A DNA stretch of 64,000 nt from Clostridia bacterium. Lineage in GTDB: Bacteria > Bacillota > Clostridia > Christensenellales > Aristaeellaceae. This document shows positions 20,230-36,017 of the stretch, one piece after another (within the stretch, counting starts at the first letter, position 1; every line of letters begins with the position of its first letter). The stretch spans positions 33,952 through 97,951 of the forward strand of contig JAFRBK010000046.1 of assembly GCA_017404985.1 (NCBI GenBank), read 5' to 3'. The notes beneath the pieces were generated by a model. The model was not told the DNA's origin. It ran no database searches and saw only the letters and a list, made by a program, of their open reading frames with translations. The position numbers and the translations under genes were made by a program.

Positions 20230-20231
20230 TG

Positions 20232-20759: not shown

Positions 20760-20793
20760 CAAAACCACCTCTTGAAAATGATGATTTATTATA

Positions 20794-20889: not shown

Positions 20890-20945
20890 GAGGATGTAGT
20901 TAAGCGGCAATGCTTAATACAAGTACAGGAGAAAGGGACTAACGA

Positions 20946-21149
20946 ATGGCAAACCAGTTTATGAGAGCAGATGAGGTGGCAAAGGAACTTGGAATCTCGA
21001 GATCCTATGCCTACAAGCTGATCCGGCAGCTCAATCAGGAACTCAAAGAGCGGGGTTTCCTGACCATCGCAGGAAGGATCAACCGGGATTATTTAAGGGA
21101 AAGGCTCTATACAGCAGAAAGTGGGGTGAAACAGAATGTCGGTCTATAA
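20946..21149 (+). CDS. excisionase-like helix-turn-helix protein
   Basis: 67 residues, one winged or simple helix-turn-helix (RADEVAKELGISRSYAYKLI). Good AGGAG site upstream and a 14-base overlap with the integrase gene. Size, fold and position are those of Xis / MerR-like recombination directionality factors in Tn916-type elements. Confidence 0.78.
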   Translation: MANQFMRADEVAKELGISRSYAYKLIRQLNQELKERGFLTIAGRINRDYLRERLYTAESGVKQNVGL

Positions 21150-22227
21150 GGACGAAAAAACCGGGAAATGGTATGCGCTGGCCTGGTATCACGACTGGAA
21201 GGGCGAAGGTCGCCAGAAATGCAAGCGCGGCTTTGAAACCAAAAAAGAGGCGCAGGATTGGGAGCGGAGCTATGTACAGCAGAATACAACCGGTATCGAT
21301 ATGACCTTCGAAGCCTTCTGCGGACTCTACGAAAAGGATCGGAGGCCACGCCTGAAGGAAAGCACCTGGCTGACAAAGGAAAACATCATCAAAAACAGGC
21401 TGCTCCCGACCTTTGGGAAGATGATGATAAGTGAAATTGAAACCAAGCACGTCATCGCCTGGCAGAATGAGCTGCTGGCTTATCGGGATGAATTCAAAAA
21501 ACCGTACTCGGCTACCTACCTGAAAACGGTACATAACCAGCTGGTGGCGATCCTGAACCATGCGGTACGGCACTATGGGCTGAAAAGCAATCCGGCCTCC
21601 AAGGTAGGCTGCATCGGCAGCAAAGAACGAGAAGAAATGAACTTCTGGACGAAGGAGGAGTACATGAAGTTTGCGGAAGCAATTATGGACAAGCCGATGT
21701 CCTACTACGCCTTCGAAATGTTGTACTGGTGCGGGATCCGGGAGGGAGAAATGCTGGCACTCACCCCGGCGGACTTCAACTTTACGAAGAAAACAGTAAG
21801 GATCAACAAAACATATCAGCGGATTCACGGTCAGGATCTGATTACATCGCCAAAGACGAAAAAGAGCGTGCGAACAGTTGAGATGCCGGACTTCCTCTGC
21901 GATGAAATGCAGGATTACATCAAGAGCCTCTACAAGGTGCAGAAGAATGACCGGATCTTCCCCATCACCAAGAGCTATTTGCAGCATGAGATGAGGCGGG
22001 GCTCAGCAGAAGCAGGTGTAAAGCGCATCAGGATCCACGATTTGAGGCACAGCCATATATCACTTTTGATCGACATGGGGTTCAGCGCGGTAGCGATTGC
22101 GGATCGTGTTGGGCACGAGAGCATCGATATCACCTTCCGCTACGCGCACATGTTCCCCTCCCGTCAGGTGGATATGGCGCAGCGGCTGAATAATGAAAGA
22201 ATGGAGGGACAAGCAAATGTCAGCTAA
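21136..22227 (+). CDS. int: tyrosine recombinase / integrase
   Basis: 363 residues. An N-terminal arm-binding domain (MSVYKDEKTGKWYALAWY, typical of Tn916/phage Int), a SAM-like core-binding domain (about 58-160) and a C-terminal catalytic domain with GIREGEML (first Arg), HDLRHSH (His-x-x-Arg), GHESIDITFRYAHM (second His and the nucleophile Tyr). All catalytic residues are present, so it should be active. It presumably recombines the GAGTGGGAATGA core at guaA. Confidence 0.93.
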   Translation: MSVYKDEKTGKWYALAWYHDWKGEGRQKCKRGFETKKEAQDWERSYVQQNTTGIDMTFEAFCGLYEKDRRPRLKESTWLTKENIIKNRLLPTFGKMMISEIETKHVIAWQNELLAYRDEFKKPYSATYLKTVHNQLVAILNHAVRHYGLKSNPASKVGCIGSKEREEMNFWTKEEYMKFAEAIMDKPMSYYAFEMLYWCGIREGEMLALTPADFNFTKKTVRINKTYQRIHGQDLITSPKTKKSVRTVEMPDFLCDEMQDYIKSLYKVQKNDRIFPITKSYLQHEMRRGSAEAGVKRIRIHDLRHSHISLLIDMGFSAVAIADRVGHESIDITFRYAHMFPSRQVDMAQRLNNERMEGQANVS

Positions 22228-22543
22228 AAACGTAGACCGGCGCAACCGTTTCCGGAGCATCACGGTGGGTTTCCGGGTATCCCCGGAAGAAAACGAACAG
22301 CTTAACCGGGCAGTGGCTCTGTCAGGGCTTCCGAAGCAGGAATACTGTTACCGGAAATGCATGAACCGGGATATCACCGTCACCCCGAATCCCCGGATAT
22401 TCAAAATGATGAATATCCACATGAAGGACATCCTGATGGAACTTCAGCGGCTTGTCCAGGGAGAAAACCCCAGCCAGGAGCTGCTTGAAGATATCGCACT
22501 AATCACCAAAATGCTGAACGACATGAAGGAGGAAAGAAAATGA
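22217..22543 (+). CDS. MobC-like relaxosome accessory / ribbon-helix-helix protein
   Basis: 108 residues. N-terminal basic ribbon-helix-helix region (RSITVGFRVSPEENEQLNRA) and LPKQEYCYRKCM resemble plasmid mobilization MobC-family proteins, which nick-site proteins use as auxiliaries. Starts at the ATG behind GGAGGGAC, overlapping the integrase 3' end by 11 bases. No relaxase partner is visible in the island. Confidence 0.65.
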   Translation: MSAKNVDRRNRFRSITVGFRVSPEENEQLNRAVALSGLPKQEYCYRKCMNRDITVTPNPRIFKMMNIHMKDILMELQRLVQGENPSQELLEDIALITKMLNDMKEERK

Positions 22544-22917
22544 ACAGCATCTTTGAAGAACGCGGCGGTACCTACACCCTTGGAGCAGACGGCATGCTCT
22601 ACCCGAACCTGATCCTGGAACCCCAGGAGCACCGCCCCATCGGAAGATGGGGACGGATGCACCGGGCATACCTGGAAGCGGAGCATCCTGGACTCTATGA
22701 GCGGCTGATTCTGAACGGAACCCTGGACCGGCATCTGGCGGATGCGGAGGAGCGAGCTGGAATGATGCTGGATCAGCTGAGCCGGCAGATGGCACTGCAG
22801 GAAGGCATCACGGAGAGCCTGAAAGCGGCAGACCAGATGGAATGGGTTCAGAGGATGAACAGCATCCGCAGCCGGGCAGAAGAAACCGTCCGGGAAGAAA
22901 TCATCAATACCCTGTAA
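22540..22917 (+). CDS. tnpV: TnpV-family transposon protein
   Basis: 125 residues, overlapping the previous stop by ATGA. MNSIFEERGGTYTLGADGML, PIGRWGRMHRAYLEAEHPGL and the ending MEWVQRMNSIRSRAEE match the TnpV proteins of Tn4451/Tn1549-type clostridial elements. The biochemical role of TnpV is unknown; it marks this stretch as mobile-element DNA. Confidence 0.82.
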   Translation: MNSIFEERGGTYTLGADGMLYPNLILEPQEHRPIGRWGRMHRAYLEAEHPGLYERLILNGTLDRHLADAEERAGMMLDQLSRQMALQEGITESLKAADQMEWVQRMNSIRSRAEETVREEIINTL

Positions 22918-22954
22918 CACGACAGCGCCGCATGAGCGGCAGAAAGAGAGGATT

Positions 22955-23896
22955 ATGCTTACCAATACGAACCCCATCACCAAGAATCCCACCGTAGTCA
23001 TCGGGATCGACCACGGCTACGGCAACATCAAGACGGCCAACACCTGCTTCCGGGCAGGTGTGACCGCCTATGACAAAGAGCCATTCTTCATCATCGGATC
23101 ACTTCAATACAACGGCAAGTGGTACGGCATTGGCGAGGATCACAAAGAGTTCATCCCGGACAAGATGACGGATCAGGACTACTACATCCTGACGCTTGCC
23201 GCCATCGCCCGGGAAATGGATCTGGCGCATATGACCAGCGCCGACATCCACCTGGCTGTCGGACTGCCCCTGACCTGGGTGTCAGAGCAGAAAGACCGCT
23301 TCCGTAAATATCTGATCCAGCGGAAGGACGTGAAGTTCAGCTTCGATGGCGTTGCCTACAGCATCCGGATTGTCGGCTGCGATGTCTTCCCTCAGGGCTT
23401 CGCAGCTGTCGCAGATAAACTGGCGGAGTTCAAAGGCACGACCATGTTGTGTGATATCGGCAACGGCACCATGAACATCATGACCATCAGCAACGGGAAA
23501 CCTAATCCGCAGAAATGTTATACAGAGAAGTATGGAACCTACCAGTGCATGCTGTCTATCCGGGAGCAGCTCATGCGGAAGTTCGGTACGGCCATCGATG
23601 ATGATGTGATCGACGATGCGCTCAGGTACGGCACTGCGGATATCGGCGAAAAATACCTGACAGTGATCCGGGAAGTCGCCCAGCAGTATGTGGCTGGGAT
23701 CATGCGCCGGCTGCGTGAGCATGAGTACAATCCGGAGCTGATGAAACTGTACATCGTCGGAGGCGGCGGGTGCCTGATACGGAATTTCGGCGAATATGAT
23801 CCCAATCGGGTAACGATCAATGACGATATCTGCGCCACAGCAAAGGGATATGAGTTCCTGGCCAATCTGAAGTTGAAGAAGGCGAACGCGGCATGA
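22955..23896 (+). CDS. ParM/StbA-like actin homologue
   Basis: 313 residues with the actin-ATPase signature pieces: GIDHGYGNIKTAN (phosphate 1), MLCDIGNGTMNIM (phosphate 2) and YIVGGGGCLIRNF (adenosine). Such proteins form filaments that segregate plasmids or circular integrative elements. It is followed with a 4-base overlap by a small ParR-like gene and then by an iteron-rich region, the layout of a type II partition cassette. Its presence in an integrated island suggests stabilisation of an excised circular form. Confidence 0.85.
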   Translation: MLTNTNPITKNPTVVIGIDHGYGNIKTANTCFRAGVTAYDKEPFFIIGSLQYNGKWYGIGEDHKEFIPDKMTDQDYYILTLAAIAREMDLAHMTSADIHLAVGLPLTWVSEQKDRFRKYLIQRKDVKFSFDGVAYSIRIVGCDVFPQGFAAVADKLAEFKGTTMLCDIGNGTMNIMTISNGKPNPQKCYTEKYGTYQCMLSIREQLMRKFGTAIDDDVIDDALRYGTADIGEKYLTVIREVAQQYVAGIMRRLREHEYNPELMKLYIVGGGGCLIRNFGEYDPNRVTINDDICATAKGYEFLANLKLKKANAA

Positions 23897-24264
23897 ACAA
23901 GAAGGAAAACCTTTTCACCACAACCCTGCGGCTGAACCTGAACAATACACAGGACATGGAGGCTTGGAACAACCTGATGAGCACCGACAGAAACCAGCCG
24001 GAATACAGCTCATACAGCCGAACAATCGTCACCGCCATCAACGATCACTTTGCCCGGCAGGACCGCATGGAGGAGCAACAGGAATGGGAAGAAGTGCTAC
24101 TGAAAAAGATCGAGGCTACGATCCGGGAAACGTTCATCAGCTGCATGAAAGAGTTCCAAATCACCGCTGCGCCACCGACAGCAGAGAAATCTGAGCCGCC
24201 GGCGCAATCTGATCCGCCCGATGAAACAGAAGCGAACATCGAAGCCTTCCTGGACTGCTTCTGA
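23893..24264 (+). CDS. ParR-like adaptor protein (putative)
   Basis: 123 residues. N-terminal segment LFTTTLRLNLNNTQDMEAWN looks like a ribbon-helix-helix DNA-binding strand-helix; the C-terminus is acidic and proline-rich (PPAQSDPPDETEANIEAFLD), as in ParR adaptors that contact ParM. No residue-level family signature is recognised; the call rests on size, position and translational coupling to the ParM-like gene. Confidence 0.6.
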   Translation: MNKKENLFTTTLRLNLNNTQDMEAWNNLMSTDRNQPEYSSYSRTIVTAINDHFARQDRMEEQQEWEEVLLKKIEATIRETFISCMKEFQITAAPPTAEKSEPPAQSDPPDETEANIEAFLDCF

Positions 24265-24965
24265 GGGGTGCACCACAAGTGGTATCACGACGGGCTGAAA
24301 AATGATACCACTTGTAATACCAACCCAAGATGCAAAAAGCCAACGGCATAAATTGGAAGGCTCGCCTTAAGCCGGAAAATGAATCATCACCCGAAACCAA
24401 GTTAATACCAATAGAGCACCAAACCCCTGCACCTGAAAAGTTGGTATCACAAACCAACCAACAGGCGCAGGGGGTTTTCTTTATCATTCAGCGTTTGCTG
24501 AACCGTGGTGATACCAAAGGTTCACCACACAACCACAGCACAAAGTGCTGGCATGAGGGGCTTGGGGGCGGAGCCCTCAACAAGCTTTTTGCAAAATGTA
24601 TTAACTTTGCATTGCTTGCTACTATCGTGTCGCCCGTGACTGATTAGCGTAAAAAAAGCGAAAAATCGATATGGCAGACGAAAGCTTTGTCATAAATGTA
24701 TATCGGAAATTATGGAGATCGTCCCAGAGGAAACAGAAGAGAAAAAGGGAGAGGTTGCGGTTCATGGATAATCAGTCCATCAAGAAATCATCGCAAGAGC
24801 AGGCCGAGATCAACCTTCCTGATGATCTCAGCCTGAGATACGATTTGTCATGTGGCATTAATAGAGGCATGGCCGGCTGAAATAGTTGTACTTGCCCGAC
24901 TTAATGCGTTTCATGCAATAATTGCGTGAGGCAGTGCGACATAAGATTGAATCGTGAAAAAGGCT
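24265..24965. repeat. iteron-rich non-coding region (putative centromere)
   Basis: About 700 bases without a convincing gene. It holds a 13-bp perfect inverted repeat ACAAGTGGTATCA (24275) / TGATACCACTTGT (24303) and further copies of the TACCA core: TAATACCAA (24315), TTAATACCAAT (24402), TTGGTATCAC (24441), GTGATACCAAAGG (24508). A bulged hairpin AAACCCCTGC / GCAGGGGGTTT followed by TTTTCTTT (24421-24482) may terminate the par operon. A second GC-rich hairpin follows at 24555. The rest, to 24965, is AT-richer with short reading frames not supported by a start signal. Confidence 0.6.
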
Positions 24966-25694
24966 TTAGATGCCGCCTTCCATGGCGGCACGTGTAACCA
25001 TCGTGATTCCGCTAACAGTCATATACTCCATATGTTTTTTCTTGCTCTTGGCCAGTATTCCTGCGCGCTCATAGCCAACATCAAAAGGCAAGTTCTGTAA
25101 AAAATCAATATCTCCGTTTCTTACAGCATCCATAACCGATTGCTCAAATTGCCTACTGATACGATGGGTTTCGTTTTCACTGTTTGAAAAGCGGTATTGA
25201 TCTATCTCCGTTTCCTGTATCGAAAATGAACTATCCAGAGAAAATGTTGCGCGAATGATATCTTCTTGTCTTAGTTGTCTGCCCGTAAGAAAGAGAAAAA
25301 CAATTTCCATTTCAGTTATCAAACGAAACAAAGAAGCTGTGGGGAGATAAAGGCTTCTCGCTTTAAGTCCATACCTTTCCATGATTTGATGAAGCTCTGT
25401 TATATTGATTGGCGTTTCTGAAAACGGACCCCAAATACAAAACACATCATCCACGCCTACGAAGCCAAATGTCATGCCATATTCATCTTGTAGCACACAT
25501 GGTAAATTCGCCCGTCTCCAGTGCTCAATAAAAGGCCCCACCATTTCATGCGTTAAGGTCATAATGCTGTCAGCACTTTTCTGCGCAGAGGAAAACAGAA
25601 GTTCCCCACTTCGATTGTAAATATACATGGGAGTACCATCTAACTCTGCGACTTTACTCATCAGGTATTCAATGCCAGTCACAATCCTTCTCAC
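24966..25694 (-). pseudogene. truncated AraC-family sensor fragment
   Basis: 242 residues that match the N-terminal sensing half of the large AraC regulators of gut Firmicutes (GTPMYIYNRSGELLFSS; LPTASLFRLITEMEIVFLF; ending KKHMEYMTVSGITMVTRAAMEGGI). In full-length members the helix-turn-helix domain begins soon after this last block; here a stop codon follows at once and no HTH is found in the next 200 bases in any frame. It is AT-richer than its neighbours. Either a decayed gene or a ligand-sensing remnant. GTG start, weak ribosome site. Confidence 0.6.
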
Positions 25695-25758
25695 CTTCTA
25701 TTCACCGTGACTTACTGAAAATATTTTTGTTTGTTTTGCCTTTCATTCATACTGAACA

Positions 25759-27966
25759 TTATTTTGTTTTCAGATAAAACCAGCAATACAGCACCCATGC
25801 ATGGGGATGCGCACAATAAACGGGAATGTTGGCATAGGAAAGGGATTGATCAGGCAATCCCACTTCCGGGATCAGGGAAGATTCCACTTGATCCGCCGCA
25901 GACCAATAGGAGGTCCAATACTGCGGGTACGCTTCGGACAGGCGACGCAGGGTCATTTGGTGAAGCAGGCGATCAGCTTCAGCAGGATCAAACTGAGACA
26001 CCCCGATGATCACCGGCCCATTCAATGCCCACCAGAAGCCGCCGTTTTCCCGGGAGCCTTTATCAAATTCTGGATCGTCAAATTCCGGCTGCTCCTGCTC
26101 ACGGGCACCAAGCGTTTCTCCCTGATACAGCCGCTTTTGCATTTCCTGGAATAAATGGCGCTTGGCACTTGCGGGAATTTCCGCAATTTGCAGTGTAAAA
26201 CCCATCGGCTCCAGGAACATATTGGTTTCGCCGTAGGCTTTTCCGTTAAAGTACATTCTGCGGGGAAAGGCACGCTCGCCCATATCGGCCAAATACGCAT
26301 TGAGGATACGGGTGCGATACTGCTCCATACTGGCCGCCAATCTGCGCAAAGCCTCTGATTGCTCTGACAGCGCGTCCGCCGCGCTTTGAAGCTGCGGTAT
26401 CAGCGTTTGCAATATGGCAATCGCCATCGCGGAATTCATATGGGATTCTCCCGTCAGGACGACATTGTTGTACGGTACTTTTTCGATGTAGTAGACCGCG
26501 TCGTTCCAATCCGAATTCAATAGACGGATCAGGCCATGGCTGCCGGTGTCCACGGTATCCCGCAGGAAGATAAAGCACTTTTCCGCCAATTCAGCCACCT
26601 GCATGGGTGCCATATCCCGCACGGGATAGGGTTGCACCGTTTCCGAAAGGAAGGTGACGTCCTCCGTAACCCTTAAATATTCCGAGAGGAGCAGCAGGAA
26701 AAACAGCTGCTGATCGCTGGTGAAATACCGCTCGTTGTCCGCATATCCATTTCCATATTCGATGAGCCGGATCTCCCCAAAGGGCGTGGTGCGCTTGAGC
26801 ATATATCTGAGCACGCTCTTCGCCAGCTGCTGATTGTAATACACCAGCGGCAAGGCGTGTTGAAAATTATCACGCGCGCTGGCGTGAACGCCCCAATCAT
26901 AATCGTATATTGTTCCCTGGGGGATCTTGGTTTCATCATAATATTCGCTGTAGGTGGCCATAGCCTCCAGGCAGTATGCGTGCCAGCGAAGCTCCTGCCG
27001 GAGCATTTCATCGGGCTCATTTTCCAGGCGGGGAAGCGCTTTCAGCCAATCTTCCGAAAACGCGCCACCCATCCCATCCATTGTTTTTCCGTTCAGTAAT
27101 TCCTGGCAGATGCGATCCTGCGTGGAAACGCCCTCCTCAAAGGAAAACCCGATCACCATTTGAAGCTGTTTTGTTTCCTGAGGCGCTAAAGCAAAGGTGC
27201 ATTGGGCTGCGAGCCGATGCGGATCGCAGGTCAATGTGATCGCCTCATCCGCCGCATGGAGAAAGACCTCGGGCGGAAAACCGTCGATCACGGCCATCGC
27301 TTTCCGTTCTGGGATCAGCAGCGGGTCATCGCTTTCTGCACAAATGTGGACGCTCACGGTGCGCCCATCGGGGCTTTGCCGATCATCATAGCGATAACGC
27401 AGCGGCAGGTTTTCTTCCGGCTGCGTTTGATGCCGGATTTCTGCGAAATGAACGCCGATAGATTCCTGATAAACGCATTGAATGGCAGCCGTCCCTTGGT
27501 TTTTCACCTCAACCGTCAGCAAAAAGCCCGACGCACCCTGATAGGGATCAGTGGACGGCTTTGCCGAGAGCTTACGGGTGACGGCAACCTCCCTGATCTG
27601 ATAGGCATAAGAGGCAAAACCGCAGCCGAAAATGCGCTGGCAAACATTTGGTTCAGCGGCGAGGGACTTGAGCCCTGTCAGCTCCTTGGGTTCCCCATTG
27701 ATGGAAATGGAGGCTGCATTCATACCGCTGTTGCGCCCGTTTCCCTGATTCAGCCGTGCCCAGGAGCGCTGGCCAGAAATCAGTTCGTATTCCCCGCTAA
27801 CGTGGGCAAATAATGTCATGCGATAATTTCCCAGCAGAAACCAGGGGTCCTCCGGCAATTTCACGGGTTTGCCGTTTTCTAATGCAGCCTGATAAGGCAA
27901 ATGCCCCGTATATTCAAAGCACGGCAGACCTGCCGAATCATTCCTCCAGACGCCCAGCTGATTCAT
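25759..27966 (-). CDS. GH94-like glycoside phosphorylase (GH36-type catalytic fold)
   Basis: 735 residues: an N-terminal beta-sandwich (about 1-280), a linker and an (alpha/alpha)6 barrel. LLNSDWNDAVYYIEKVPYNN corresponds to the GDWNDG catalytic-acid block of cellobiose and chitobiose phosphorylases, and WWALNGPVIIGVSQF to a later conserved block. The family phosphorolyses beta-linked disaccharides to sugar-1-phosphates. No signal peptide, so substrates must be cytoplasmic. Last gene of the island operon; start overlaps the HAD stop by ATGA. The HAD enzyme next to it resembles sugar-1-phosphate phosphatases, which fits. Specificity unknown. Confidence 0.75.
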   Translation of the reverse strand: MNQLGVWRNDSAGLPCFEYTGHLPYQAALENGKPVKLPEDPWFLLGNYRMTLFAHVSGEYELISGQRSWARLNQGNGRNSGMNAASISINGEPKELTGLKSLAAEPNVCQRIFGCGFASYAYQIREVAVTRKLSAKPSTDPYQGASGFLLTVEVKNQGTAAIQCVYQESIGVHFAEIRHQTQPEENLPLRYRYDDRQSPDGRTVSVHICAESDDPLLIPERKAMAVIDGFPPEVFLHAADEAITLTCDPHRLAAQCTFALAPQETKQLQMVIGFSFEEGVSTQDRICQELLNGKTMDGMGGAFSEDWLKALPRLENEPDEMLRQELRWHAYCLEAMATYSEYYDETKIPQGTIYDYDWGVHASARDNFQHALPLVYYNQQLAKSVLRYMLKRTTPFGEIRLIEYGNGYADNERYFTSDQQLFFLLLLSEYLRVTEDVTFLSETVQPYPVRDMAPMQVAELAEKCFIFLRDTVDTGSHGLIRLLNSDWNDAVYYIEKVPYNNVVLTGESHMNSAMAIAILQTLIPQLQSAADALSEQSEALRRLAASMEQYRTRILNAYLADMGERAFPRRMYFNGKAYGETNMFLEPMGFTLQIAEIPASAKRHLFQEMQKRLYQGETLGAREQEQPEFDDPEFDKGSRENGGFWWALNGPVIIGVSQFDPAEADRLLHQMTLRRLSEAYPQYWTSYWSAADQVESSLIPEVGLPDQSLSYANIPVYCAHPHAWVLYCWFYLKTK

Positions 27967-28571
27967 GTTGTTTCCCTCTTGATTCTTTCAATTTCCCGCG
28001 CAGCCTGCTGCTGATTTTGAAATACGATCCCATGCAGCCCCACCGATATTGCGGCAGCCACATTGACAGTGGAATCATCCAGAAATACACATTCTTCGGC
28101 CCGAAGCTGGTAGCGAACCAGCAGCAGGCGATAGATCGCGGGATCGGGCTTGATCATCCGCTCCAGCCAAGACAATACTTTGCCATCTACGAGGTGTAGA
28201 AAGCCCAATTCGCTTTGACAACCGTTGTAAATCAGATCAGAAATGTTGGACAGACAGAACACCCGGAATCCTTCCGTCTGCAAAGATCGAATCCAGCTTT
28301 CAGCATAAGGATAGGCCACGATGAAATCAGCAGCGTCCTGAAATACGGTGCGCAGGATTTCTTCATCCTGAGAATCGTTTTCGACAAAAGCGTCCAAAAT
28401 CCTTTCAAAAGGCCATACGCCCCGGTCCAGTTCCCGCCATGCAGGGCTGAAAAAGGTAGCGTTGGCTACCCGATTCGCTGTTTCCCCGTCCAGGCCCTTC
28501 CGCTGGAAGAAAGCCTGATAATTGGATTTCACCAGCACGTCGCCAATATCCAGAATGATGTTTTTGATCAT
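27963..28571 (-). CDS. HAD-IA phosphatase, YihX-like
   Basis: 202 residues. Motif I LDIGDVLV (Asp nucleophile and Asp acid/base), motif II CLSNIS, motif III lysine in MIKPDP, motif IV FLDDS. The insert and LERMIKPDPAIYRLLL are characteristic of the YihX (alpha-glucose-1-phosphatase) group. With a phosphorylase as the next gene, dephosphorylation of a sugar-1-phosphate is a plausible role; a phosphoglycolate-type housekeeping role cannot be excluded. Thirteen bases after the activase gene. Confidence 0.82.
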   Translation of the reverse strand: MIKNIILDIGDVLVKSNYQAFFQRKGLDGETANRVANATFFSPAWRELDRGVWPFERILDAFVENDSQDEEILRTVFQDAADFIVAYPYAESWIRSLQTEGFRVFCLSNISDLIYNGCQSELGFLHLVDGKVLSWLERMIKPDPAIYRLLLVRYQLRAEECVFLDDSTVNVAAAISVGLHGIVFQNQQQAAREIERIKRETT

Positions 28572-28583
28572 TGCGTTTCCTCC

Positions 28584-29492
28584 CTATCCGCCGATGGTGA
28601 CGATCAGCCCCAGCTTTCTTCCCATATCCGCATAAGACTGGAGCGTTTCCGGGGAAAGGCTTTTTTTCTCAGGGAATGGGTAATCCTGGCCCAACTGGGC
28701 GTACTTGGTCATGCCCAGGGTGTGGTAAGGCAGCAGATCCACCCGGGAAATGCCCAGGCGCAGCGCCACATCCAGAATGGCCCGGATTTCATTCTCCGTA
28801 TGATTGAGCGTTGGAATCACCGGCACCCGGACGACGAGCTTCTGCGCGTCATACTTTGCGATGATCTTCAGGTTTTTCAGCACCAGTTCCAGGCTTCCGC
28901 CAGTAAATCGCCGGAATTTTTCAGCGTCCGCCGTTTTCACGTCGAACAGGAATCGTTCCGTCCAGGGCAGCGCTTTTTCGATCGCTTCGGCGGGCACATG
29001 ACCGCAGGTTTCAAAATCCACTGGGATTTGATGGGCTTTACAATCCTGCAAAAGCGGCAGCAGCGCCTTGATATGCAGCAGCGCTTCTCCGCCGGAAAGC
29101 GTCAGCCCCCCATGGGTCTGCTTGTAATAATCCGCGTCCCGAACGACGATCGCAAATATTTCATCGGCTGTCATCCATTGGCCGCTGATTTTCAGCGCCG
29201 CCTGGGGGCATGCTGCTGCGCAGGCACCGCAACGGACGCAGCTGCCACGGTCGATCTGCGCATGGCCGTCCTCCAAAGAAACAGCGTGCTGCGGGCAGCA
29301 CTGTACGCACGTCCCGCAGCCAACGCATTTCTTTGGGAGGAACATCAATTTTTTGCCGATCACCTGAGATTCCGGGTTGGCGCACCAGGGACAACGCAGG
29401 GGGCAGCCCTGAAGAAAAACGGCCGTGCGGATGCCTTCGCCGTCATGGATGGCGAAACGCTCGATGTTAAATACCGGCAGCTTTTCCGTCAT
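28584..29492 (-). CDS. glycyl-radical enzyme activating protein (radical SAM)
   Basis: 302 residues from the ATG that overlaps the radical enzyme's stop (ATGA), behind GAGGAAAGG. Radical SAM cluster motif CPLRCPWC (CxxxCxxC), then two ferredoxin-type 4Fe-4S motifs (CVGCGTCVQCCP; CVRCGACAAACP), as in activases of non-PFL glycyl-radical enzymes. GGLTLSGGEALL is the SAM-binding GGE motif. It installs the glycyl radical on the adjacent enzyme by reductive SAM cleavage; oxygen-sensitive. Confidence 0.93.
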   Translation of the reverse strand: MTEKLPVFNIERFAIHDGEGIRTAVFLQGCPLRCPWCANPESQVIGKKLMFLPKKCVGCGTCVQCCPQHAVSLEDGHAQIDRGSCVRCGACAAACPQAALKISGQWMTADEIFAIVVRDADYYKQTHGGLTLSGGEALLHIKALLPLLQDCKAHQIPVDFETCGHVPAEAIEKALPWTERFLFDVKTADAEKFRRFTGGSLELVLKNLKIIAKYDAQKLVVRVPVIPTLNHTENEIRAILDVALRLGISRVDLLPYHTLGMTKYAQLGQDYPFPEKKSLSPETLQSYADMGRKLGLIVTIGG

Positions 29493-31801
29493 GCGAAGCA
29501 CCTTTCCTCGTCATACAAACTGCGGCTGAGCAATTCCTCCTGTACCGTCCGATCTAGGTTGACGAACACCGCGGAATAACCGGCCACCCGGACAATAAGA
29601 TCGGGATATTTTTCCGGGTGGATTATGGCGTCCTCCAACTGGCCTTTATCCACCACGGTCACCATCAGGTGGCAGCCCCCCTTGGCGAAATAGACCTTGA
29701 AAAGCTGCTCGATCAGCGCTTTGTTGCCATTGAACATAGAACGGGAGAACTTGATATTCTGTACGGAACCGGCATGGTATTTGGCGTCGAAGGTGGACAG
29801 GGAATTGAGCAGCGCCGTGGGACCGCCTTTGTCCGCACCGCCTTGGGGATTGTTGGCGGGGTTCATGTACATCCCGCTGAGCCGTCCATCCGGGGAGGCG
29901 GAGGTACGCAGGCCCCATTCGGTGTTCAGTGAATTGTTGCTGATCACGATCAGGAAATACTGCATCCCGATGGAGATACCCCGATCCCGGATGCCCTTGG
30001 ACACAAATTCGTACAGATCATTAGCCATGCCGTCCGCCGTATCCAGATCGTTGCCGTACTTATCGCAGTTCAGGCAGTCCCGCCGGATGGTGTCATAGCC
30101 CTCAAAATTGTGCAGGATGGCTTCCTCCAGCTGAGGCAGGGTATATTTTTTCTGGTCAAACACCAGAGATTTTACGGCCCATAGGGAATCGGAGGCGTTG
30201 ATGTTGCCGTAGGTTTCGCAGGTGCCGCCCAGATACCGGACGCCTCCATCAAGGAGCGCACGGCCCCGTTCAATGCAGTCGTCCATCAGGATGGAGTTGA
30301 ACAGGAAGCTGACGTGCTCGTTCATGACGCCATAGGAGCGGTATTGGGCCTGGGCGGACAGATCCATGTAATAATTCAATAGTTCCTTATAGCCCGCGTA
30401 GAATTCCTCGAAGGAATGAATCTCCGCCATGTTCCGGGGCTGGATGGGCCCCAGCTTGTTCTGACCGTCCATGGGATCAATGCCGTTATTCATGTAGATA
30501 TTCAGGATTTTGAGCAGATTGATGCAAATATTGGGCGTGCCGGTGCTTTGCCCCCACAGCACGAATTCCGTGCAGCCAAAGGGCACGTACCGCTGGGCGG
30601 TTTCCTCGTCCACCCGCATCCCATATGCTACCGCGGGCACGTTCACTTCGTCGTTATAGAGCGTGGGATAGGTGGCCCCCACGCCCAGGGCGTCCAGCGC
30701 TTCTTTCCAAGTCTGTTCATCGGTATCATTGGTCAAGCGCAGGGTGAATTGGGGCTCCACATAGCGGCAGTCCTTGCACACCTTCATGGCGATATGCAGG
30801 AAACGATCTGCTTCCTGGGGATGCTTCCTGCCTTTGCCGCCCACAATGACCCGGCCGTTGACCGTGGTGCGGCGGTTTTCGATCATGGTCCACAGGGACT
30901 TGATATACTGATAGGCTTCCTCCTCCGTCAGCACGCCGCTGTCCAGATCGCGGCACAGATAGGGCCCCAGGAAATCGTCCAGCCGGCCATAATTGATCAC
31001 GCCAGCCAGCAGTGCGTAGAGCCACAGAAGCTGCAAAGCCTCATGGAAGGTGCGAGGCGTCTCGGTGCGGATGTGTGCAAGGCCGTCAGCGATGCGCTGG
31101 AGCTCCGCCCGGCGCTTGATATTGCTTTCCGACAACTCTGCCATCTGGCTGAGCGCCTTTTCCCGCAGGGCGTCGGCGCTTTGTGTCACGATGTCCAGAC
31201 AAGCAAGGGACGCCTGATAAAAATCATTGTCGGGCTGGCCTTGCAGCTTCTTTTCGATCATGGCCCGCAGCCCTGATACGCCGTTTTCCAGGAGCTTGGG
31301 ATAATCCAGCATCATCCCGGACAGACGGGCCGTGGCAATCAGGGGGTATTCGGTATCGATGAAGCGCCCGATGGTGGTGTCCGTCAGCACTTCCCGGCAA
31401 TAGAGGGTTTTCAGGTCATGATCCAGCCAGTATTGATATAGCGTTTCCACCCGATCCGCGTATTCCTGACCCAAGGCGGTGATTTCCTTCTGGAAAGCCC
31501 GCAGCTTATTGAACACGCAGTAGTGGCCCACGCCGCCTACAGACGTGACCGTGCCAAACCCGATGGGCAGAAAATCCAGCCGCCCGGCGATCAGGTCCTG
31601 ATCTTCAATGGAGCGGAACAGGATAGGGAAAATGACCTTCAGGCATTCCACTTCCCGGCGGGCGTTGGAACCACCGGTAAATTGCCGATGAACAGCCGTA
31701 TAGCGCTCCATGATTTTTAGCTGCTCAAGCAGTGGCTTTTCGCAGGGGATCTTTTTGCTGACTTCTACGTTTTGCGCGCCTTCCACATCGAATTTTGCCA
31801 T
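29489..31801 (-). CDS. glycyl-radical enzyme, subfamily unassigned
   Basis: 770 residues, full length for the PFL/glycerol-dehydratase superfamily. The thiyl loop reads YVPFGCTEFVLWG, giving the Cys-x-Glu pair seen in eliminating and lyase members (CVE in glycerol dehydratase and choline lyase) rather than the Cys-Cys of pyruvate formate-lyase. The glycyl loop is VRVAGYSAVFVNLD near the C-terminus. Substrate loop residues do not match any subfamily I recognise. Genes around it are for sugar handling (ROK kinase, NanE-like epimerase, phosphorylase), so a phosphorylated or free sugar derivative may be its substrate. Good ribosome site (AGAGGAAC). Confidence 0.92.
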   Translation of the reverse strand: MAKFDVEGAQNVEVSKKIPCEKPLLEQLKIMERYTAVHRQFTGGSNARREVECLKVIFPILFRSIEDQDLIAGRLDFLPIGFGTVTSVGGVGHYCVFNKLRAFQKEITALGQEYADRVETLYQYWLDHDLKTLYCREVLTDTTIGRFIDTEYPLIATARLSGMMLDYPKLLENGVSGLRAMIEKKLQGQPDNDFYQASLACLDIVTQSADALREKALSQMAELSESNIKRRAELQRIADGLAHIRTETPRTFHEALQLLWLYALLAGVINYGRLDDFLGPYLCRDLDSGVLTEEEAYQYIKSLWTMIENRRTTVNGRVIVGGKGRKHPQEADRFLHIAMKVCKDCRYVEPQFTLRLTNDTDEQTWKEALDALGVGATYPTLYNDEVNVPAVAYGMRVDEETAQRYVPFGCTEFVLWGQSTGTPNICINLLKILNIYMNNGIDPMDGQNKLGPIQPRNMAEIHSFEEFYAGYKELLNYYMDLSAQAQYRSYGVMNEHVSFLFNSILMDDCIERGRALLDGGVRYLGGTCETYGNINASDSLWAVKSLVFDQKKYTLPQLEEAILHNFEGYDTIRRDCLNCDKYGNDLDTADGMANDLYEFVSKGIRDRGISIGMQYFLIVISNNSLNTEWGLRTSASPDGRLSGMYMNPANNPQGGADKGGPTALLNSLSTFDAKYHAGSVQNIKFSRSMFNGNKALIEQLFKVYFAKGGCHLMVTVVDKGQLEDAIIHPEKYPDLIVRVAGYSAVFVNLDRTVQEELLSRSLYDEERCFA

Positions 31802-31817
31802 GATGTTCCTCTTTTCG

Positions 31818-32552
31818 TTAATGCTTGCTCCGTTCAGCGTCGCGCCAGTTATCCTGTAAGCCGCCCATCAGATCCACAAATCGTTTGGCGATCAAGTGCG
31901 GGCGGGTGATGGCGCTGCCCACCACCACAGCATCGGCCCCCAGGTACAGGCACTTGATGGCATCCTCCGGGGTGTAAATATGGCCCTCCATGACGATAAA
32001 AGCCTTGTCGCAAAAGTCCCGGCACATCCGGGCAAACTCCCGAAGGTTGGGCTCCTCAATATGCTTGGTGGCTTCGGTATAGCCATACAGGGTGGGGCCC
32101 ACGATGTCCGCACCCATCTCCACCGCCCGCTTGGCTTCGTCATAGGTGGAAACGTCGGCAAAGATCAGGGCGTCGGGAATTTCCTTCTGTACGATGGGCA
32201 AAAGCTCCCAGGCAGGCCGTCCTTCGTGGGTGATCTGTTCGGTGCAGTCCAGGGCGATGATGTCTGCCCCCGCTTCCCACACCTGCTTTGCGGCGTCCAG
32301 AGTGGGGGTAATAAACACGTCTGTATCGTCGTGCCAGATCTTATACAGGCCGATCAGGGGCAGATCCACCTGCTCCTTAATCATTTTGATCTGATCCGGG
32401 GAATTGGCCCGAATACCAACTGCGCCTGCCCATTGGGCGGCTTTGGCCATTTTCAATACGAAATCCATGGAATATACCGGGTCATCGGGCTGCACCTGGC
32501 AGGAAACGATCAGGCCGCCCTTCAGTTTTTCTAACAGCGCTTTATTCTTCAT
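31818..32552 (-). CDS. NanE-like N-acylmannosamine-6-phosphate 2-epimerase
   Basis: 244 residues from the ATG behind GGAGGCAAGG. GGLIVSCQVQP at the N-terminus, LIGLYKIWHDD with the catalytic lysine position, IALDCTEQ, and VVGSAITRP at the phosphate site match the NanE TIM-barrel family (ManNAc-6-P to GlcNAc-6-P). It differs from typical NanE at several loops, notably GIRANSPDQI and MEGHIYTP (NanE usually has AEGRYNTP), so the substrate could be a different 2-substituted hexose phosphate. Seventeen bases before the radical enzyme gene. Confidence 0.8.
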   Translation of the reverse strand: MKNKALLEKLKGGLIVSCQVQPDDPVYSMDFVLKMAKAAQWAGAVGIRANSPDQIKMIKEQVDLPLIGLYKIWHDDTDVFITPTLDAAKQVWEAGADIIALDCTEQITHEGRPAWELLPIVQKEIPDALIFADVSTYDEAKRAVEMGADIVGPTLYGYTEATKHIEEPNLREFARMCRDFCDKAFIVMEGHIYTPEDAIKCLYLGADAVVVGSAITRPHLIAKRFVDLMGGLQDNWRDAERSKH

Positions 32553-32571
32553 CTGTCCTTGCCTCCAATTC

Positions 32572-33540
32572 TTATTGTTTCCGTCTATCCATTCCGTACT
32601 TTTCCAGCATAGCCGCCCCGATGATCCCCGCATCGTTTCCCGCCTGGGCCAATCGAAGCTCCGGGATGCCGATTTCTGCAGCGGCAAACGTGGATTCCTG
32701 CACCTTTTCCCTGATCGGGTTCAGCAGCAGATCTCCCGCTTTGGCCACGCCGCCCCCCAGGATCACCGCCTCCGGGCGGAAAATGGCGATGAAATTGCCA
32801 ATGGCGGCTGCAAGCTGGGAAAGATACATATCCCAGATTTCCAAAGCGGTCTGATCACCCAGCTGAACAGCCTCCGTTACCATTCGCGCTTCCAGCTTTC
32901 GGATGTCATGATGGCATAAATCCCACAAAATCGTTCCGCCCGTCAGCATTTCCTGAGCCGTTTCCTTGAGCCCACGGGCGGAGCAATAGCCGTCGATGCA
33001 GCCCATTTGTCCGCAGGTACATTTTCTTCCCCGGAAAAACAGCTTGGTATGGCCCAATTCTGCGCCTAGCCCATCTGCGCCGCTATAGATGCGTCCATTC
33101 AGGATGATCCCACCGCCAACGCCTGTTCCCAGCGTCAGCATGACCACGGTTTGAAAATCCTTCGCCGCACCGGCTACCGTTTCTCCCAGCACGGCGCAGT
33201 TGGCATCGTTTTCGATAAAAATGGGCAGATCGATGCGAGGCTCCAGATATTGATAAATCGGCACGTTCCGCCAGCCGAAGCAGTTAGCATGCACCAATAA
33301 GCCGGTTTGGGGATTTACATAGCTTGGCATTCCGATACCCCAGGAAGCCATATCCCGGAGGGTAAGCCCGGCGCTTTCCACCGCCATCAGGGATACCTTC
33401 GCCATATCAGCGGAGATCTCTTCTATGCTTCGTCCCGCCCCCGCAGGCAGCACGGCATGGCTGATCACCCTGCCTTCTTCATCCACCACCCCGGCAGATA
33501 AATTGGTGCCTCCTACATCGAGACCAATGTCGTAGCGCAT
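32572..33540 (-). CDS. ROK-family sugar kinase
   Basis: 322 residues. N-terminal ATP-binding DVGGTNLSAGVVD, catalytic region ENDANCAVLGE, LGTGVGGGII, and the zinc motif HTKLFFRGRKCTCGQMGC (CxCGxxGC). ROK kinases phosphorylate glucose, ManNAc, allose and related hexoses at O6. With a NanE-like enzyme as the next gene, a ManNAc kinase-type step is the natural guess. First gene of the operon, divergent from the AraC regulator. No HTH domain, so an enzyme rather than a regulator. Confidence 0.88.
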   Translation of the reverse strand: MRYDIGLDVGGTNLSAGVVDEEGRVISHAVLPAGAGRSIEEISADMAKVSLMAVESAGLTLRDMASWGIGMPSYVNPQTGLLVHANCFGWRNVPIYQYLEPRIDLPIFIENDANCAVLGETVAGAAKDFQTVVMLTLGTGVGGGIILNGRIYSGADGLGAELGHTKLFFRGRKCTCGQMGCIDGYCSARGLKETAQEMLTGGTILWDLCHHDIRKLEARMVTEAVQLGDQTALEIWDMYLSQLAAAIGNFIAIFRPEAVILGGGVAKAGDLLLNPIREKVQESTFAAAEIGIPELRLAQAGNDAGIIGAAMLEKYGMDRRKQ

Positions 33541-33564
33541 GAAATCCGCCTCCCTTCAAGGATC

Positions 33565-33667
33565 ATTATAGAACGGGGGCGGCAGTACATCAATACTTGA
33601 AAACGCCATAAAGTTTATTCAAAATGCTTTGATCGTTCTTGACAGGAAGCCGATTATCTGATTCAAT
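33565..33667. promoter_or_regulatory. divergent promoters of the glycyl-radical operon and AraC gene
   Basis: Minus strand: TTGATG, 17 bases, TATAAT (33565-33593) for the ROK gene. Plus strand: TTGACA (33639), 17 bases, TTCAAT (33662) for the AraC gene. Between them lies TTGAAAACGCCATAAAGTTT, an AT-rich stretch where an AraC dimer could bind. Confidence 0.65.
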
Positions 33668-33709
33668 AAAGGCAGCTGATTCCGTTTGGTTTCGCAAGGA
33701 GGAAAAGAA

Positions 33710-34585
33710 ATGATCTGGAAGGAAACAGGGGTTGAGAAGGGGTCCTATATGAGCTATTTCAATCCATCAGATATTTTCCGGAAGTGCTTTGTATATATGG
33801 TCAGCTGCGGTTATTTCCTGTGCAATCATGAGTACAGCATCAAAAAGGCCGGGAGCAGGCACCCCATCTTTTTTTTCATTATCGATGGCGAATTGACTTT
33901 CGATTATGAAGGGGATCATTTTGTCGCCGAAAAAAATGACATTGTACTGCTGAATGGATATAAGCCGCATCATTATTACTGCGAGCAAAGATGCGAGTTC
34001 CTTTTTTTCCATTTTGACGGCAAGGACGTCCCGGACTTGATCGACGTTTTGATCTCCTCCAACCGCAGCGCGTGTTTCCGTTTGACCAACGCGCAGGAAA
34101 TTTACTCAAACATCAACGAACCCATCACAAAATTATGCCATCAGGAACGCGCTTCTGACGCTTTTCTTTCTTCGATTGTTTATTCAACATTATGTATGAT
34201 CCCGAATACAGGGAACGATTCCAATCTCTTCATTCCGCCGCATGTGAAGGTAACGGCCGACATGGTTTCCTACCAAATCATCGAATATATCGACCTTCAT
34301 ATCGGAAAACAGTTTTCTGTACAGGAACTGGCGGACTATGCAGGGTTAAGCCGCCATTACTTCATGCGGCTTTTCAAAAAAGAAACCGGCTATACGCCGC
34401 AGGAGTACGTTTCCGTTGCCAAAATCAATTATGCCAAGCTGATGCTGCGCACAACCGTTTTGACCGTCTCAGAGATTTCCGATTATTTAGGATACAGCAG
34501 TTCGGCCAGCTTCATCAATGCCTTCCGTCTGCGTCGCGGCATATCGCCTAATCAGTACAGAAAAATGTACGCCAGCAAAAAATGA
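33710..34585 (+). CDS. AraC-family transcriptional activator
   Basis: 291 residues from the ATG behind AGGAGG. N-terminal cupin-like sensor (HPIFFFIIDGELTFDYEG, NDIVLLNGYKPHHYY) and two C-terminal AraC helix-turn-helix motifs (FSVQELADYAGLSRHYFMRL; TVSEISDYLGYSSSASFINA). Divergent from the glycyl-radical operon, so it is the likely ligand-responsive activator of it. Sequence is AT-rich compared with flanking chromosome. Confidence 0.9.
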   Translation: MIWKETGVEKGSYMSYFNPSDIFRKCFVYMVSCGYFLCNHEYSIKKAGSRHPIFFFIIDGELTFDYEGDHFVAEKNDIVLLNGYKPHHYYCEQRCEFLFFHFDGKDVPDLIDVLISSNRSACFRLTNAQEIYSNINEPITKLCHQERASDAFLSSIVYSTLCMIPNTGNDSNLFIPPHVKVTADMVSYQIIEYIDLHIGKQFSVQELADYAGLSRHYFMRLFKKETGYTPQEYVSVAKINYAKLMLRTTVLTVSEISDYLGYSSSASFINAFRLRRGISPNQYRKMYASKK

Positions 34586-34927
34586 CTTTCGGAATCATCT
34601 GCCTTTCTACGATGAACACCCTCTGCTTTTCTTTACATCGGACTCAAACCCTCCCAGAAAATGTGGTAAAAAAGAATAGGCAGGTGATCGTTGGTCGGTG
34701 GAGGCTTACCAAGAACATCGTTGTCTTGCGTGGCAATCAGAAATGTAGTATAATGATCCCAGGGGAATAATCCCCGCGATCCACGGTAAAACAACCTCTT
34801 TATCACGCTGATAAAGAAATGATAAACTGAGGCTGTAGAGCATGGAGAATACAGATAATCTGTAGAATCAGAATCACGAGAACGAACAGGAGAAACGAAA
34901 ACTAAGCTAAAAGCGTTAGATTGCATA
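34586..34927. other. non-coding right end of the island
   Basis: No gene with a start signal. Contains the right copy of the 19-bp subterminal repeat and a possible hairpin (AGGGGAATAATCCCC near 34760). AT-rich. Confidence 0.6.
34808..34826 (+). repeat. right subterminal 19-bp direct repeat
   Basis: Exact copy of the left-end CTGATAAAGAAATGATAAA, 101 bases inside attR, same orientation. Confidence 0.75.
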
Positions 34928-34939
34928 GAGTGGGAATGA
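34928..34939 (+). repeat. attR core
   Basis: GAGTGGGAATGA, identical to the guaA 3' end. It is preceded here by island DNA and followed by what should be native guaA downstream sequence. Confidence 0.85.
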
Positions 34940-34981
34940 TGTCGATAACCGCCAGTGGCGGAAATCTCATCGACGTCATTC
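34934..34981. repeat. nested palindrome overlapping attR
   Basis: Outer arms GAATGATGTCGAT and ATCGACGTCATTC (12 of 13 pair) enclose a 6-bp perfect hairpin CCGCCA-G-TGGCGG. No T-tract follows. It probably is the native structure behind guaA before integration. Confidence 0.7.
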
Positions 34982-35084
34982 TCAACCGAAAAGGAGCGAT
35001 CTGCACAGTGTGCAGTCGCGACCTCTCTCCACTCTGTCCCTCTCCACTCTCTGCTCTCCCTCTTCCGTGTATAAGGAGAAGCCT

Positions 35085-36017
35085 ATGGGAATTCTTGTCA
35101 TCGGTGCAGTTTTTGTGGATATCAAGGGTTACCCGCTGGATAAATATATCCCGGGCGGCCGCAACGTGGGGCGGGTCATACATACCCACGGCGGCGTCTG
35201 CCGCAACGTGGTGGAAAACATCGCCAACGTGGAGCTCCGCCCCGCCTTCCTCAGCGTAGTGGATGATACCGGCATCGGCGCGGAGGTCGTCGACCGCCTG
35301 TCAAGGCATAAGGTCAACACCGACTGTATCCTGCGGCAGCCGGACGGCATGGGCACCTGGCTGGCCATCTTCGACAACAGCGGTGATGTGGTCGCCTCCA
35401 TCTCCAGGCGCCCGGACCTAAGCGCGCTGCTGGACGTGCTGAATGCCCGGGGGGATTCCCTGGTCAGCCGGGCGGACAGTATCGTGGTGGAAATAGATAT
35501 GGATGCCCCAATTCTCAAGCGGGTTTTTGCCCTTGCGCAGCAGTACGGGAAAGATGTCTACGGCGTGGTTTCCAATATGGCCATCGCCATGGAGCGCCGC
35601 GACCTGCTTCAGCAGACTTCCTGCATTGTCTGCAACAAACAGGAAGCAGGCATGCTGTTTTCAGAGGATTATTCCGAAGCCTCCGCCGAAGAAATCAGTG
35701 CCCTGCTTCCGGACAGGCTTGCCCGTGCGAACATCCCGCGGATGGTCGTCACCCTGGGGCCTGACGGCGCGGTATATGCCGAACAGGGTAAAGGAAGCGG
35801 CATCTGCACGACTCCGAACGTCGATCCGGTGGATACCACCGGGTGCGGGGACGCGTTTTTCTCCGGTGTAGCCATCGGCCTGACCTATGGCAAAACACTC
35901 CCCGAGGCCTGTGAAATCGGCACGCGCCTCGCCATTTCCGTGATTCTGACCAAGGAAAGCGTCTGCCCCCGCTTCCGCCCCGAGGAATTCGGCCTGTCTC
36001 CTGTTCAGGAAGAATAA
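35085..36017 (+). CDS. PfkB-family carbohydrate/nucleoside kinase
   Basis: 310 residues from the ATG behind AAGGAG. N-terminal GILVIGAVFVDIKGYPL with the GG-containing lid (HTHGGVCRNVVEN) and C-terminal signature DTTGCGDAFFSGVAIGL, where the Asp is the catalytic base. Short residues between and the N-terminal VFVDIKG resemble the pseudouridine kinase/ribokinase-like branch, but substrate is not certain. First native gene after the island. Preceded by pyrimidine-rich CTCTCCACTCT repeats. Confidence 0.85.
   Translation: MGILVIGAVFVDIKGYPLDKYIPGGRNVGRVIHTHGGVCRNVVENIANVELRPAFLSVVDDTGIGAEVVDRLSRHKVNTDCILRQPDGMGTWLAIFDNSGDVVASISRRPDLSALLDVLNARGDSLVSRADSIVVEIDMDAPILKRVFALAQQYGKDVYGVVSNMAIAMERRDLLQQTSCIVCNKQEAGMLFSEDYSEASAEEISALLPDRLARANIPRMVVTLGPDGAVYAEQGKGSGICTTPNVDPVDTTGCGDAFFSGVAIGLTYGKTLPEACEIGTRLAISVILTKESVCPRFRPEEFGLSPVQEE

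Follow-up and report, generated by a model that had tools for sequence, protein, structure and literature searches.

In a 64,000-nucleotide stretch of contig JAFRBK010000046.1 from a Clostridia bacterium (hereafter the window) we analysed an operon built around a glycyl-radical enzyme (GRE), and found that this enzyme represents a subfamily separate from all the characterised GRE groups with which it was compared. What is conserved across its relatives is a catabolic module of GRE, activase and NanE-like protein, joined in about half of the loci by a ROK kinase and accompanied by an AraC- or DeoR-type regulator; the gene set, its conservation, the distinct clades of the GRE and of the NanE-like protein, the motifs and the mobility of the operon are supported by the sequences. 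For this module we favour, with a probability of roughly 0.38, a route through hexose 6-phosphates in which a kinase step, C2 chemistry by the NanE-like protein and a radical 1,2-elimination by the GRE on the manno form would follow one another.

The operon consists of six minus-strand genes, encoding in order a ROK kinase, the NanE-like protein, the GRE, its activase, a HAD protein and a GH94-like protein, opposite a divergent AraC gene on the plus strand. All of them lie where an earlier note on this DNA had put them, and the families it named agree with the profile scores. The genes are packed, as the note had said, although in part more tightly than the 4 to 20 base gaps it gave, the spacings in operon order being +19, +16, an overlap, +12 and -4 bases.

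The GRE (positions 29489-31801, minus strand; 770 aa) contains both the PFL-like domain (PF02901, 421 bits) and the Gly_radical domain (PF01228, 88 bits), and these, together with a thiyl Cys410, a glycyl loop carrying Gly741 and the adjoining radical-SAM activase (28584-29501, minus strand; TIGR02494, PFLE_PFLC, 323 bits for a cut-off of 174), identify it as a glycyl-radical enzyme. Cys410 and Glu412 of the thiyl loop FGCTEF (30563-30580, minus strand) are invariant in all 58 aligned rows (58 of the 59 family members were long enough for alignment), so that the Cys-x-Glu motif of eliminase- or lyase-type GREs, which the earlier note had read here, is present in every aligned member of the family. 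Gly741, in the loop RVAGYS (29573-29590, minus strand), is found in every one of the 57 rows, out of 58, that extend to the glycyl loop. None of the GRE equivalogs of NCBIfam comes near its cut-off: the best score is that of the general model TIGR01774 (320 of 678), those for CutC and HypD are 258 of 1050 and 275 of 1100, and the enzyme falls far below the cut-offs for sulfopropanediol dehydratase, IAD and HPAD. Its best match to a solved structure reaches 254 bits only.

Phylogenetic trees were built from 12 members of the family of 59, three sequences each of HypD and CutC, the E. coli enzymes PflD and YbiW, and a hand-picked sample of 20 GREs from the phylum, two of which (L081 and L087) were dropped when the filter yielded no GRE in the fetched stretches; they were later extended by eight closer relatives from a profile search, here called sister GREs. 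For glycerol dehydratase, IslA, the sulfopropanediol dehydratases, the decarboxylases and PFL proper the comparison was made through profile or PDB scores, not through named rows in the trees. The family forms a single clade with an ultrafast bootstrap support (UFBoot) of 100, FastTree versions having been built as well, and with the sister GREs (33-36% identical to the window enzyme) it forms a superclade, also with UFBoot 100, which a long branch of 1.10 substitutions per site parts from all the other rows. Outside the superclade the identities to the window GRE are 21.6-27.0%, with 23-26% across PflD, YbiW, CutC and HypD. Membership of the YbiW/PflD group is thus ruled out by the separate clade and by identities of 25.1% to PflD and 23.3% to YbiW, and membership of the HypD or CutC groups by tree and identity likewise; the claim that the enzyme matches no recognised subfamily holds for the characterised subfamilies compared in trees and by profile scores. 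Two loops, a glycine-rich N-terminal PIGFGxVTSxGGVGH and a shortened ENRRTTVNGR, occur in the clade and are absent from PflD, YbiW, HypD and CutC, and a segment with the sequence ESNxxS in PflD and YbiW is missing from both the clade and its sisters. Arg310, Arg311, Arg317 and Arg325 are invariant in 58 of 58 rows, positions 317 and 325 being aligned as Arg also in all eight sister GREs; the arginines and loops could hold a phosphate.

A one-protein query over a genome collection of 84,980 species, a search that more distant members would escape, returned 72 stretches, 58 of them with a GRE relative 55-96% identical to that of the window. These relatives occur in Bacillota, Bacteroidota, Treponema and one actinomycete (Kribbibacterium, Actinomycetota), and many derive from ruminant stomach or gut samples. 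Neighbours were counted by tblastn and family clustering over 59 loci (the 58 relatives and the window), some of which end early, and genes in the relatives were called with our own codon-usage script. The activase is found in 56 loci, the NanE-like gene in 51 and the ROK gene in 31, followed by AraC (30), Gfo/Idh/MocA (18), GH94-like (13), DeoR (12), DUF1080-like (12, by eye), BT2158-like (11), and HAD, sugar ATP-binding cassette (ABC) and PGM-like genes (5 each); the one PGM-like neighbour that was scored reached at best 175 bits, under its cut-off. The strict core is therefore GRE, activase and NanE-like protein, with ROK in about half of the loci and with exchangeable front ends. Of the sugar genes named in the earlier note, the NanE-like gene is thus retained by most relatives and the ROK gene by about half of them, and its set of six genes is not general, the HAD and GH94-like genes being optional. 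Three of the eight loci in which the NanE-like gene is missing (L036, L037 and L038) begin at or within the GRE gene; the others are L018, L024, L040, L042 and L045. A cassette-type NanE (67-97% identity) was detected in 13 of 16 genomes tested, a set that included the genomes of these five loci; it is present in those of L024 and L042, where it lies away from the GRE locus, in the latter closing an operon of ABC, Gfo/Idh/MocA, TIM-barrel, ROK, DeoR and NagB-like genes. None was found at E 1e-15 in the genomes of L018 and L045, and the genome of L040 holds only a 40% homologue. In locus L009 (2286-16028) the cassette of ROK, NanE-like, GRE and activase genes stands amid glucan genes, namely a GH1, two GH16-like and two GH94-like genes, of whose products the beta-glucosidase and a lichenase-type glucanase (one of the two GH16-like proteins) pass their cut-offs.

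The NanE-like protein (31818-32552, minus strand, with its ATG at 32552) is a TIM-barrel protein that scores 243 bits with the NanE subfamily model NF002231 (cut-off 189). To compare its residues we aligned 48 cassette-type sequences, that is L117 and 47 of 48 members of the family (L033 was too short), with the NanE of E. coli and four carrier-genome proteins of the NanE type that were taken as canonical. Q19, R48, K71, D133, E189 and R217, which the alignment equates with the six active-site residues published for S. aureus NanE (PMC8482478, in the part consulted), are invariant in all 48. The protein is 35-43% identical to the five comparison proteins and differs from them at 22 cassette-specific positions, 21 of which are invariant and one conserved in 47 of 48 sequences; at four of these, near the C-terminus, only one to four outside sequences were available for comparison. 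P153, Y156, M188 and H191 adjoin catalytic or substrate-touching residues. Because of these positions, of a pure cassette clade (support 0.84, with five outside sequences) and of the presence of both NanE kinds in five of 16 genomes tested, we regard the protein, on its sequence, as a distinct paralogue of NanE, which perhaps acts on a different C2 substituent or catalyses a different reaction. Against such a change speaks Y158, kept in 48 of 48 sequences, the counterpart of Tyr149, which in S. aureus NanE contacts the acetamide methyl group (PMC8482478, same part).

Upstream, the ROK sugar kinase (32572-33540, minus strand; PF00480, 238 bits) is glucokinase-like: its nearest solved structures are the glucokinases 3vgk and 2qm1, and it scores 236.9 bits, its L117 homologue 260.0, with the ROK glucokinase model TIGR00744, whose cut-off of 260.35 neither reaches. 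The optional genes at the other end encode a HAD-IA phosphatase-like protein (27963-28571, minus strand; PF00702, 55 bits; TIGR02247, 67.6 bits, under the cut-off of 125) and a glycoside-active protein of the GH94 superfamily (25759-27966, minus strand). We soften the label of phosphorylase that the latter had received, since its Pfam GH94 score is just over the cut-off (PF17167, 30.4 bits against 27) and the match of a nine-homologue profile to cellobiose phosphorylase 8ho7 (E 9e-11) is limited to profile positions 240-613 out of 742. In several Bacteroidota loci the GH94-like gene starts with what appears by eye to be a signal-peptide-like leader, which would suit a hydrolase better than a phosphorylase. 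On the opposite strand, the AraC-type regulator (33686-34585, plus strand) scores 72 bits with HTH_18 and 37 bits with AraC_binding. A probable operon promoter, TTGATG-17-TATAAT (33565-33593, minus strand), is sigma-70-like, matches 10 of 12 positions and lies about 25 bases before the ROK gene; the promoter scan as a whole gave five sigma-70-like sites against a shuffle mean of 7.5, i.e. no excess. Beyond the GH94-like gene, at 24966-25694, the island described below holds a reading frame of 242 aa with no Pfam or NCBIfam match, which by eye resembles the sensor half of an AraC-type protein without its DNA-binding half.

The earlier note had held that no transporter is encoded and that uptake depends on the host. 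Indeed no importer lies between the AraC and ROK genes of the window, but the nearest relative shows that one can belong to the system. This locus (L003, from a Clostridia bacterium of roe-deer omasum) is 92% identical in DNA over window positions 27685-33541 and 88% over the AraC gene, the match stopping about 280 bases into the GH94-like gene, and it carries between AraC and ROK three ABC genes for a ChvE/GguAB-like importer. The components score under their cut-offs (GguA 745 of 810, GguB 406 of 450, ChvE 234 of 460), and the binding protein matches structure 4rxu, which we take to contain glucose, at 458.6 bits. Loci L043 and L056 have the gene order of L003. A stretch of 38 bp in the AraC-ROK gap of the window, overlapping the -35 side of the promoter, is 84% conserved in L003, where it lies between AraC and its transporter gene; given this resemblance, loss of the importer from the window fits the sequences.

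In the route that we favour, a glucose-like monosaccharide would be released by the optional glycosidases or imported, and the ROK kinase would then phosphorylate it at O6; where ROK is missing, another kinase or a phosphotransferase system (PTS) would presumably do so. The NanE-like protein would act at C2 of the open-chain hexose 6-phosphate, judging by its six conserved residues most simply as a gluco/manno C2 epimerase. The activated GRE would take the manno-configured 6-phosphate, the thiyl radical of Cys410 abstracting hydrogen from a carbinol carbon and the neighbouring oxygen being expelled with the help of Glu412, a 1,2-elimination of the kind suggested by the Cys-x-Glu motif, and the resulting keto- or deoxy-sugar phosphate would be handed to household enzymes. 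Substrate, stereochemistry, product and order of steps are predictions made from sequence. They draw on the presence of the NanE-like gene in 51 and of ROK in 31 of the 59 GRE loci, on the affinity of ROK to glucokinases, on the six residues conserved in all 48 NanE-like proteins, on the ChvE/GguAB-like importer of L003, on the clade-specific loops and arginines of the GRE, on the cassette-type NanE that two of the five genomes without it beside the GRE carry elsewhere, and on a link to mannose seen in the few loci described next.

Several observations weigh against this hexose 6-phosphate route. ROK is missing from 28 of the 59 loci (some of which end early), which counts against it as an obligatory step, and three of the 16 genomes tested lack a cassette-type NanE, although one of them is represented by only 1.6 Mb of sequence. 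The link to mannose comes from few loci, namely two of 59 with a class I mannose-6-phosphate isomerase beside the GRE (one of which scored 200 bits for a cut-off of 116) and an Epulonipiscium locus with a fructose-type PTS IIC and a mannosylglycerate-hydrolase-like GH38; in the Epulonipiscium genome no NanE was found, and both matches fall under their cut-offs (hydrolase 596 bits against 1138, PTS 150 against 158). An epimerase of glucose 6-phosphate and mannose 6-phosphate would, moreover, duplicate ordinary isomerases if the C2 group were a plain hydroxyl, so that the substrate may be unusual. Finally, the published NanE signature x-P-x-I-G-I-x-K-basic (in the part of PMC8482478 consulted) is replaced by I-G-L-x-K-[IV] in all 48 cassette sequences; this weighs little, since the signature is also broken in three of the five NanE-type proteins used for comparison.

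The strongest rival, though an improbable one, is a third route for 1,5-anhydrohexitols, in which ROK would make a 1,5-anhydrohexitol 6-phosphate, the GRE would open its ring to a 1-deoxyketose 6-phosphate and the NanE-like protein would serve as the aldolase. It has a precedent in YbiW and PflD, which cleave 1,5-anhydroglucitol- and 1,5-anhydromannitol-6-phosphate to 1-deoxyfructose-6-phosphate (review PMC12441222, in the part consulted), but the GRE of the window stands outside their well-supported clade, at the low identities given above. A glucose analogue would suit the glucose-like importer and the glucokinase-like ROK, and GRE, activase and aldolase would need no further partner, as in the loci with few other genes. 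The Gfo/Idh/MocA-type oxidoreductases in 18 of 59 loci also fit this route: for two of them, dihydrodiol dehydrogenase and 1,5-anhydrofructose reductase are found among the weaker PDB matches that bear a name, beneath uncharacterised oxidoreductases, matches that fix no substrate, and none of the six that were scanned reaches a curated cut-off. The altered NanE residues near C2 (P153, Y156) would agree with a new reaction, whereas retention of all six epimerase residues would not, and we know of no precedent for a NanE acting as a lyase. No imine was found in true NanE, according to the part of PMC8482478 consulted, and this too counts against an aldolase. The route leaves the mannose-6-phosphate isomerase unexplained, and the E. 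coli partners are not a general requirement: among 17 cassette genomes, seven have an FSA match over the cut-off, 12 any match and five none, and a GldA-like protein is found in only five.

Quite unlikely, in our view, is an amino-sugar variant, in which the NanE-like protein would still epimerise a hexosamine 6-phosphate and the GRE would break the C-N bond, or the N-linked group, of an N-substituted hexosamine 6-phosphate. GREs of the Cys-x-Glu type can cleave C-N bonds, as CutC does, and Y158 is the counterpart of an acetamide-contacting tyrosine; yet the positions near C2 are changed in 48 of 48 sequences and the nearest relatives of ROK are glucokinases. NagB-like genes stand by the GRE in L034 and by the separate NanE in L117, but neither protein reaches any NCBIfam cut-off (their best scores are 123 and 146 bits), and no deacetylase was noticed among the neighbours by eye, no dedicated search having been made. 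The route proposed in the earlier note, in which a GH94-type phosphorylase would yield a sugar 1-phosphate, the HAD protein would dephosphorylate it, and kinase, epimerase and GRE would follow, has in its favour the gene order of the window and of L006, L009 and L054. We consider it very unlikely, because its supposed core of phosphorylase and HAD is present in only 13 and 5 of the 59 loci, the phosphorylase match is partial, several Bacteroidota homologues carry signal-peptide-like leaders, and making a sugar 1-phosphate only to destroy it would waste its energy. That the operon members serve separate pathways and were joined by chance on the island would agree with the differing optional genes among loci, but it was disfavoured already and is the least probable of all, as GRE, activase and NanE-like protein are linked across phyla and the NanE paralogue has a clade of its own.

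Statements on the neighbours of the sister GREs rest on six of eight loci, L106 and L107 having been excluded after the gene caller chose antisense frames in them. None of the six readable loci contains a NanE match. Two of them (L109 and L110) carry, after the GRE and activase genes, those for an MGH1-like glycosidase, for a ROK kinase and for a protein weakly similar to mannose-6-phosphate isomerase (a 27% BLAST match with no Pfam hit, Pfam having been run on L109 only), with GH38-type and ABC genes on the opposite side. The superclade is thus often accompanied by sugar phosphorylation genes, and the NanE partner is specific to the clade of the window. Another GRE, which belongs to the sister clade and is 34% identical, is encoded in the genome of the window itself (G000) on contig C18 (19580-21688; L095, L103), where it adjoins a gene that is GH38-like by eye and a divergent regulator in another glycan locus; no function assigned to it was found. 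At locus L105 (9405-18584) the last gene of an operon encodes a more distant GRE of the superclade; the genes before it are of the Gfo/Idh, alcohol dehydrogenase, TIM-barrel, L-fucose-isomerase-like, FGGY kinase and DeoC-family aldolase types, and together they may form a radical route that leads to a deoxy-sugar phosphate. Selenocysteine was considered for four sister GREs flagged with one in-frame TGA and rejected, as in the two that were read through it (L099 and L101) the TGA lies just past the glycyl loop, where the protein normally ends.

The whole operon sits on an integrative island of 14,936 bp (20004-34939, no strand assigned) that adjoins the 3' end of guaA and whose site seems to be empty in a relative, which bears out the island-borne location claimed earlier. 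The guaA gene, whose reading frame contains GMP_synt_C, terminates at 20003, and its final 12 bases, GAGTGGGAATGA, comprising the last codons and the stop (19992-20003, plus strand; left copy of the attachment (att) core), reappear at 34928-34939 (plus strand; right copy, GAGTGGGAATGA). A direct repeat of 19 bp, possibly an integrase arm site, lies just within each end as exact copies (20062-20080 and 34808-34826, both plus strand). Among 2000 random pairs of window segments none shares a 19-base word (longest 15), and 21 share 12 or more bases, so that the 12-base core alone is weak evidence. Between the repeats lie genes for a tyrosine integrase (21136-22227, plus strand; PF00589 73 bits, PF14659 68 bits, PF14657 47 bits), a NikA-like mobilisation protein (22193-22543, plus strand; PF21983, 41 bits), TnpV and an actin-like protein. 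The last of these (22955-23896, with an ALP N-terminal domain), standing by the integrase, NikA-like and TnpV genes, is in our judgement unusual for a 15-kb element. In the sister species G426, guaA (85% identical) continues directly into sequence like the right flank of the window; this junction aligns with a score of 38, whereas the island interior scores 10 and none of 500 shuffles exceeds 16.5. Integrase, att repeats and an empty site in a relative are thus all present, with the caveats that the right flank carries a short repeat found at many sites of the genus and that the next right-hand gene, for a PfkB kinase, is on another contig than guaA in G324, G416 and G424. The start of that flank (34945-35085) contains a sequence of about 79 bases that recurs in many places of genomes of the same genus. 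Among related genomes the cassette is seldom found: one of 299 genomes of the phylum matches at E 1e-150, and in a sample of 100 from the family eight genomes match, the window clade being confined to the genome of the window and the other seven being of the sister type.

Many GREs of gut genomes have no known function, and the family described here is a deep branch that keeps the same NanE-like partner across phyla. That conserved partner narrows the candidate substrates to C2-epimeric hexose 6-phosphates and 1,5-anhydrohexitol 6-phosphates. The gene set points to a sugar-breakdown route yet to be worked out; if the proposal is true, anaerobic sugar breakdown by bacteria of the rumen and gut would gain a radical step, and an anaerobic catabolic route would be travelling on a 15-kb island. 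A bolder and more doubtful reading is that the module is a radical sugar-phosphate pathway of a new kind, carried from phylum to phylum by horizontal transfer, in which the superclade would cleave C-O bonds of hexose 6-phosphates as no known GRE does, and the NanE-like partner would have changed in function, possibly to an aldolase or isomerase feeding glycolysis. In the titles and abstract openings consulted, we found no description of a GRE paired with a NanE or 2-epimerase.

Among known systems, small integrative elements that insert behind guaA likewise have a tyrosine integrase beside this gene and a core repeat at both ends, and a link between guaA and genomic islands appears in the literature listings consulted; the element of the window differs in carrying a catabolic GRE operon as cargo. 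The sialic-acid module NanK-NanE also sets a ROK kinase beside a NanE fold with six identical catalytic residues, but the cassette NanE differs in its 35-43% identity and 22 specific positions, its ROK is nearer to glucokinase and a GRE is part of the operon. The BT2157-BT2160-type 3-keto-glycoside pathway has a counterpart in 11 of 59 loci, where BT2158-like genes lie close to the cassette; the one that was tested scores 843 bits with the BT_2158 glycoside 3-dehydrogenase model, over its cut-off of 750. This pathway would be a separate, optional front end outside the operon of the window. CutC, HypD and glycerol dehydratase share the fold family, the Cys-x-Glu thiyl loop and the RVAGYS glycyl loop, and no choline, proline or propanediol genes were recognised among the neighbours; from CutC and HypD the enzyme further differs in scores far under the equivalog cut-offs and in its active-site loops. 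With the YbiW/FsaA and PflD/FsaB pathways of E. coli, where ybiW stands beside fsaA and pflD amid PTS genes, the operon has in common a GRE with its activase and the Cys-x-Glu motif, and it departs from them in a GRE of another clade, a ROK kinase instead of a PTS, a NanE-like protein and an operon without an FSA gene.

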